From NCBI RefSeq assembly GCF_000152745.1, contig NZ_CH672428.1:1691251-1755250 (forward strand): 64,000 nt of DNA, given 5' to 3'. The DNA comes from Oceanicaulis sp. HTCC2633. Its GTDB lineage: Bacteria; Pseudomonadota; Alphaproteobacteria; Caulobacterales; Maricaulaceae. Each line of letters begins with the position of its first letter. Position 1 is the stretch's first letter. Shown piece after piece: positions 47,356 through 47,549 of the stretch. Under the pieces are notes generated by a model. It had not been told where the DNA came from and made no database searches. It saw nothing but the letters and a program-made list of their open reading frames with translations. Both the position numbers and the translations under genes were made by a program.

Positions 47356-47390
47356 AAAGAAAAACCCCCGCTCCGGTATGGAGCGGGGGT
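47356..47390 (-). terminator. ilv-leu operon attenuator terminator
   Basis: CCCCCGCTCC (47389-47380) pairs perfectly with GGAGCGGGGG (47374-47365) around a five-base loop, followed by TTTTTCTTT. It lies between the leader peptide and ilvC. The competing antiterminator is GGAGCGGCGG (47441-47432), which matches the 3' arm at 9 of 10 positions and would pair with the 5' arm. A small protector hairpin CCACC/GGTGG covers 47452-47440. Confidence 0.88.
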
Positions 47391-47420
47391 TTGCTTGGGT
47401 CTGAGGTGTGTTTGCTACCG

Positions 47421-47549
47421 TCAGACAGGCGCCGCCGCTCCACCGGAGGTGGTAATAAGGAGTACGACGACAAGAAGTACGACCGAGCCGGCCACCGCAG
47501 CGATACGCTGGGCGTCCTGGGTCAGGGTCTGGGTCTTTGCGTCGCGCAT
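47421..47549 (-). CDS. ilvL: ilv-leu operon leader peptide (attenuator)
   Basis: 42 codons with GGGAGA about eight bases before the ATG at 47549. Residues 23-34 read [12 protein letters not shown], so twelve consecutive control codons cover the three branched-chain amino acids and threonine. It ends [13 protein letters not shown], overlapping the protector and antiterminator segments, then the terminator follows. This is the layout of the E. coli ilvGMEDA attenuator: with charged tRNAs the ribosome advances and the terminator forms; stalling on Val, Leu or Ile codons lets the antiterminator form and ilvC-leuB is transcribed. Seen directly; function by analogy. Confidence 0.88.

Follow-up and report, generated by a model that had tools for sequence, protein, structure and literature searches.

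A ribosome-mediated transcription attenuator very probably precedes the eight-gene ilv-leu operon of Oceanicaulis sp. HTCC2633

In Escherichia coli, the leader of the ilvGMEDA operon (ilvL) carries a run of Ile, Val, and Leu codons within the layout of an attenuator. A comparable system is the attenuator of ilvBN in Caulobacter crescentus, whose leader contains Ile and Val codons in tandem; when the ribosome pauses there, the rho-independent terminator is prevented and polymerase enters ilvBN (an excerpt of PMC4117421, citing Tarleton, Malakooti and Ely 1994). A leader peptide of ilvB in alphaproteobacteria is called previously described in a passage of PMC1273637, citing Vitreschak et al. 2004, and ilvGMEDA of E. 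coli is named as attenuated in a passage of PMC1183508. Here, we describe a leader in a 64,000-nucleotide stretch of the Oceanicaulis sp. HTCC2633 genome (NZ_CH672428.1, positions 1,691,251 to 1,755,250), the whole of which we refer to as the window. As far as these excerpts describe the earlier systems, the leader is of the same class as the Caulobacter attenuator but differs in its target, which is an eight-gene, ilvC-first cluster instead of ilvBN. It would likewise represent leader-peptide control of branched-chain genes within the class, as for ilvB, and an attenuated branched-chain leader like ilvL, to which we liken it by description and not by sequence. Mechanism, pathway, and class are thus all precedented, and the ilv leader of the window is a further instance of a known form of control. 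Nothing on attenuators of ilvC or ilvD in this lineage appeared in the literature searched, whose coverage was partial and from which no absence is claimed. What the locus offers is a well-conserved case of control by leader-peptide attenuation over eight clustered branched-chain genes; for its class, that literature showed only ilvB/ilvBN leaders.

The operon behind the leader lies on the minus strand and begins with ilvC, encoding ketol-acid reductoisomerase (46285..47298; NCBIfam TIGR00465, PRK05479). It is followed by an ilvB/ilvG-type acetolactate synthase large subunit (44569..46263; NCBIfam PRK08978) and a small ACT-domain subunit resembling ilvM/ilvN (44299..44565), for which ACT_5 scored above its cut-off and the NCBIfam matches fell below theirs. 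Profile matches identify the remaining genes as leuA (42713..44302), ilvE (41732..42700), leuC (40315..41754), leuD (39747..40325, start inferred), and leuB (38683..39750). A first-pass annotation of the same DNA, made from the letters alone, had placed eight genes under the control of the leader, and ilvC is indeed joined by seven more ilv/leu genes on the same strand; neighboring genes either overlap or stand 21, 3, or 12 bases apart. Outside the window, the genome has a second ketol-acid reductoisomerase-like gene (L049, G000:C1:1071510-1072481) that is 43% identical to the IlvC of the operon. Three genomes of the same genus have only a distant ketol-acid reductoisomerase-like gene of this sort.

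The leader peptide ORF comprises 42 codons on the minus strand, from an ATG at 47549 to a TGA at 47421 (47421..47549), and is kept in close relatives. A Shine-Dalgarno sequence, GGGAG (47558..47562), lies 8 nt 5' of the ATG and is the same in loci L002 and L003. The ATG may be taken as the start, as its ribosome site is better placed than that of an upstream in-frame GTG at 47573, itself a possible start. Twelve consecutive Val, Leu, Ile, and Thr codons, marked by rare synonyms, occupy 47483-47448 (47448..47483), and the window has just one other run of this kind. Both the frame with its ribosome site and the twelve-codon run had been reported by the first-pass annotation, and rereading the sequence returned the same coordinates. 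In this short ORF, then, a ribosome site is combined with a run of codons that match the products of the operon behind it. The Thr codons of the run are not constant among relatives, where TSL, TSI, and PIP are found; therefore, the amino acids sensed are most likely Val, Leu, and Ile.

Downstream of the ORF, an intrinsic terminator with its T-run spans 47356..47392 on the minus strand. Its core pairs region 3, the 5' arm CCCCCGCTCC (47380..47389), with GGAGCGGGGG, joining 47389-47380 to 47374-47365 through nine G-C pairs and one A-T pair. The annotation's perfect 10-bp GC stem with T-run is thus accurate in its ten pairs and its T-run and not in being purely GC. Flanking A-T pairs lengthen the hairpin to 13 pairs (47392-47362), 9 of them G-C, after which comes TTTTTCTTT; 57 bases separate the T-run from the ilvC start at 47298. 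The terminator thus stands after the leader and ahead of the first structural gene and is retained in relatives, with canonical pairing in 586 of 628 alignment cells. The alignment behind this and the following counts has 75 rows, namely the matches more than 100 bases long among 96 matches at E <=0.0003 in 76 sources. Agreement in these rows leans towards the covariance model, as the model was made from 16 of the 75 and served to align every one; one row, the thr leader of L014, is not an ilv leader, and 74 rows remain without it.

Region 2, the candidate antiterminator strand GGAGCGGCGG (47432..47441, minus strand), agrees with the terminator 3' arm at 9 of 10 positions, as had been claimed for a competing segment at 47441-47432. 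Its pairing with region 3 is canonical in 504 of 517 cells (97%, 75 rows), compared with 44-67% after displacing the partner by 1 to 3 columns. Care must be taken in reading this value. When partners were shuffled among sequences, regions 2 and 3 still paired at a mean of 0.964 and a highest value, in 500 shuffles, of 0.971, against the observed 0.975, because the columns of both regions hardly vary. We therefore rejected covariation as proof of the pairing, which is kept mostly by invariance, and covariation support is thin. Compensatory changes are seen in two Xanthomonadales (GGTGCGG/CCGCACC) and in L185 (GGAAGCGG/CCGCTTCC). By duplex energy, the best partner of region 3 in the upstream stretch tested includes region 2 in all 19 sequences, with an equally good partner in 0 to 37 of 300 shuffles across them. 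At the sequence level, then, the leader has an antiterminator that would exclude the terminator.

Two forms of a protector hairpin overlapping the control codons were found. The small form (47440..47452, minus strand) pairs CCACC at 47452-47448 with GGTGG at 47444-47440 in the centroid of the 209-nt fold, and it fits the earlier description of a protector over the last control codons. The larger form, from the minimum-energy fold, has 14 pairs between 47471-47451 and 47444-47431 (47431..47471, minus strand); within it, control codons at 47471-47459 pair with 47441-47431, with ACC against GGT inside, such that region 2 is held. At least three pairs between the two sides of the small protector can be formed in 71 of 74 homologs, and its mean energy is -5.3 compared with -2.5 in shuffles, with only 35 of the 74 beating 95% of their own shuffles. 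The leader as a whole folds more stably than expected, with z-scores of -4.5 (209 nt) and -5.1 (129 nt), and in each case none of 200 shuffles was as stable.

The start of transcription can be placed only provisionally. A putative promoter, TTGCGC-N18-TACGGT, lies at 47664..47693 on the minus strand. TTGC[CG]N is found at the corresponding place in 14 of 16 close loci (in L016 it occurs only elsewhere, and in L004 not at all), and the second hexamer is variable (TACGGT, TAGCCT, AACGTT, and others). A generic sigma-70 scan found no promoter for the ilv leader. Just after the putative start site, RNA folding predicts a 5' untranslated hairpin (47623..47652, minus strand), and hairpins fold at about the same place in many relatives, with differing sequences.

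Taken together, the conservation of the element, its anatomy, and the codon bias described below make attenuation well supported from sequence, and we regard the leader as very probably a ribosome-mediated transcription attenuator of the ilv-leu operon. Each of the textbook elements that the first-pass annotation listed has been located and is kept in relatives. We infer the start site, termination, stalling, and amino acid response as follows. RNA polymerase would start upstream of the leader and synthesize its RNA while the 42-codon peptide is being translated by a ribosome. A shortage of charged Val-, Leu-, or Ile-tRNA would stall the ribosome in the Val/Leu/Ile run, where it would cover the protector on its 5' side. 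With region 2 (47441-47432) thereby released for pairing with region 3 (47389-47380), the terminator would be blocked, and ilvC and the seven genes behind it would be transcribed. With ample amino acids, the ribosome would reach the stop at 47421, just past region 2, and mask that region, and with no translation the protector would hold it. In either situation, hairpin 3:4 could form and transcription would stop near 47356.

Conservation was examined by searching 99 genomes of the family with IlvC, which gave 16 matches of at least 80% identity in three genera, eight of them in the genus itself (the window included). All 16 loci have a Val/Leu/Ile leader frame, region 2 (GGAGCGG), and the terminator before ilvC. 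An alignment of relatives had been proposed earlier as a check, and in it the leader frame, codon run, region 2, and stem are kept in 16 of 16; both the codon run and the alternative structures are thus conserved in related genomes. A strict ORF filter missed L004 and L014, whose leader frames are visible in the sequence, and a seventeenth close locus (G346) was found by the RNA model. Gaps inside the control-codon run of the close loci are of 3 or 6 bases. No close ilvC lacking a leader was seen among the loci examined. Three of the 11 genomes of the genus that were searched (G004, G022, and G088) lack a close ilvC. A close ilvB and the fused aspartate kinase-homoserine dehydrogenase are missing from all three as well as from G389, and therefore the ilv cluster and the thr cluster described below seem to be absent from them as wholes. 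G392 has more distant versions.

Codon choice within the leader can also be informative. For this comparison, a fixed stretch of 14 codons before region 2 was taken from 16 leaders and set against the ilvC genes of the same genomes; the rows are related, so that the Fisher p values given here overstate independence. Leu is encoded by CTT in 45 of 61 cases compared with 15 of 413 in ilvC (p 2e-36), Val by GTA in 19 of 61 compared with 2 of 320 (p 9e-15), and Ile by ATT in 22 of 32 compared with 38 of 288 (p 4e-11). Set against 20,000 draws from local codon usage, the window's own run proved rarer than almost every one (p 0.0005). The 42 tRNA genes identified include single genes for Leu GAG, CAG, TAG, TAA, and CAA, single genes for Val GAC, TAC, and CAC, and none for Ile GAT. 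Under ordinary wobble rules, CTT and CTC are read by the same tRNA, as are ATT and ATC, and therefore tRNA choice alone may fall short of a full explanation of the preference for CTT over CTC and ATT over ATC. Rare leader codons and selective charging are discussed in a passage of PMC1183508, which also gives the E. coli thr leader with its eight ACC codons. With its bias towards the rare codons CTT, GTA, and ATT and one tRNA gene per Leu or Val anticodon, the ilv leader offers a clean case for ideas on selective charging.

The reading of the ilv leader as an attenuator in the first-pass annotation is supported, and what it missed is an adjacent, divergent candidate attenuator of thr type. A second leader peptide ORF (47881..48033, plus strand) contains a LTTTITTITTTLT run and ends in ...ALTTTITTITTTLTRGRGGTG. 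It is followed by a terminator, CCCGCTC...GAGCGGG plus six T (48068..48101, plus strand), which is also found in relatives. Profile matches identify the plus-strand genes behind it as a fused aspartate kinase-homoserine dehydrogenase (594 residues, 48156..49940), a GHMP kinase that is likely homoserine kinase (about 49957..50916), threonine synthase (50907..52208), and ilvD (52215..53897). Like the E. coli thr leader, the window's thr leader relies mainly on ACC in its main run. The thr operon leader of Rfam (RF00506) likewise combines Thr/Ile runs with a terminator before threonine genes, but it differs in that the window's thr leader scores 18.7 of 55 bits on this family, on which the ilv leader scores 22.9.

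All 16 close loci have a comparable Thr/Ile-run leader with terminator, pointing away from the ilv leader. Each locus has a G-rich partner for the 5' arm of the thr terminator, which is less clear-cut against shuffles, with fractions of 0.005 to 0.32. Ten loci of the fused enzyme, three of them among the 16, were also examined: a Thr/Ile candidate leader is present in 7, with a terminator close behind in 6, and no such leader was found in the other 3. A Pfam search of the fused enzyme listed no ACT domain at any E up to 10. With no such feedback domain listed, attenuation may replace allosteric feedback at the entry to the pathway. We tentatively propose, with somewhat less than even confidence, that two divergent attenuators share one intergenic stretch, with about 330 bases from one leader start to the other, and jointly gate much of the Thr/Ile/Val/Leu pathway, with attenuation perhaps taking the place of feedback inhibition at its entry. 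Val/Leu/Ile codons would gate the genes from ilvC to leuB, and Thr/Ile codons would gate the four genes behind the thr leader, from aspartate kinase-homoserine dehydrogenase to ilvD. Such a conserved head-to-head arrangement would be a modest extra beyond the known mechanism.

Other explanations of the ilv leader must be weighed against attenuation. The ORF could encode a small hydrophobic membrane peptide with a role of its own, whose transcript is ended by the terminator, with read-through into the operon at a fixed rate. The Val/Leu/Ile run is hydrophobic as in a membrane helix, several relatives share an N-terminus of MRD[A/T]K, and leader peptides can act in trans, as peTrpL of Sinorhizobium does (an excerpt of PMC7298713). 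However, free hydrophobic choice would hardly give the composition seen in the 14-codon stretch of the 16 leaders, in which Phe occurs twice and Ala four times against 182 of 224 positions held by Val, Leu, Ile, or Thr, and a protein has no need of rare synonymous codons. Region 2 (GGA GCG G) is moreover seemingly constrained as nucleotides, a change of C to T in 10 rows keeping a G-U pair, and the divergent thr leader repeats the same layout with a run of Thr and Ile that is polar. We thus consider a membrane peptide very improbable.

An ordinary terminator of an upstream unit lying beside a chance ORF is less probable still, to the point of being barely credible. Intergenic terminators can have many reasons, and the covariance model also matches other terminator-like sites in the genome, of which the one inspected is a plain gene end. 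The upstream neighbor, however, is the divergent thr unit and not a gene on the same strand, and the leader is conserved together with the hairpin in 16 of 16 loci. Chance is also a poor source of such arrangements: the six frames of the window hold exactly two runs of at least eight Val/Leu/Ile/Thr codons, those of the ilv leader and the divergent Thr/Ile leader, compared with 0.18 per shuffle. Both reach a stop within 25 codons and then a terminator, the thr one at the milder hairpin threshold only, and 60 dinucleotide-preserving shuffles of the window gave no leader-plus-terminator event at any of three threshold pairs. Only slightly more credible, and still very improbable, is another kind of leader RNA, such as a ligand-binding riboswitch or a protein-binding attenuator, to which the peptide would be incidental. 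Hairpin folds in the 5' untranslated part of the window's leader and of many related ones would suit such an RNA, but the control codons correspond to the products of the pathway, and no Rfam family matched the window at gathering level. The 21 sub-threshold matches here (up to E 10) are weak, with a best E of 0.039 and scores far below family thresholds; for the leader families (Leu, Thr, and His), the best leader scores are about 23 against 49-55 bits.

With ribosome-mediated attenuation as the preferred reading, the covariance model built from the 16 close loci can be used to follow the element into other genomes. Run on 36 other sources, it gave full-length matches in 7 (L053-L058 and L039), with E from 7.6e-10 (L057) to 0.0033 (L055), and none in the other 29. 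The seven are Asticcacaulis, two Brevundimonas, Xanthomonas bromi, a Lysobacterales MAG, and a Robiginitomaculum MAG (L039 and L058, apparently the same contig). Robiginitomaculum is placed in Maricaulales by NCBI, and GTDB puts these families in Caulobacterales. Within the order, 302 of 398 genomes have some match at E <=0.01, a tally that is not a count of attenuators, as many of the listed matches are partial and cover the terminator only. Of 385 genomes of the class, 3 had a match at E <=1e-6, one of them the genome of the window, so that at this stringency the element is rare outside the order. Within the same genome, a candidate second attenuator (L213, 23.9 bits, spanning the whole model) was rejected as a plain gene-end terminator; another whole-model match, at C1:1648440, scores 17 bits (E 0.17).

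Most of the 40 listed full-length matches that were retrieved show the same leader plan, and in a few distant homologs the control run is short or broken, down to 4 residues. The longest downstream ORF in 53 further loci (these 40 and L150-L162) most resembles ilvD in 52 and leuA in 1. In the latter (L150, G010:C7), the same type of attenuator lies before leuA, and the stretch examined has a Leu-rich run, LVLLSALLLM, as expected for a leu leader. This is likely an attenuator that has moved to a new gene. An element that stays recognizable while its target changes (ilvC here, ilvD mostly, and leuA once) can be useful for studying the movement of attenuators between genes. The genome of L150 has another copy of the attenuator at C2:134833, about 1.8 kb before its ilvC.

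The ilvC leaders of the two Xanthomonadales, Xanthomonas bromi (L056) and the Lysobacterales MAG (L057), likewise have a Val/Leu/Ile run ending in ITSP.GAG, a region 2, and a terminator, and they differ in having a T/A pair where region 2 and its partner have A/T in the window. Operon and leader may have spread by gene transfer. In IlvC likeness, these two sources come just behind Asticcacaulis and Brevundimonas among the named contigs, and their leaders are similar down to the DNA stretch CTTATTACCTC.
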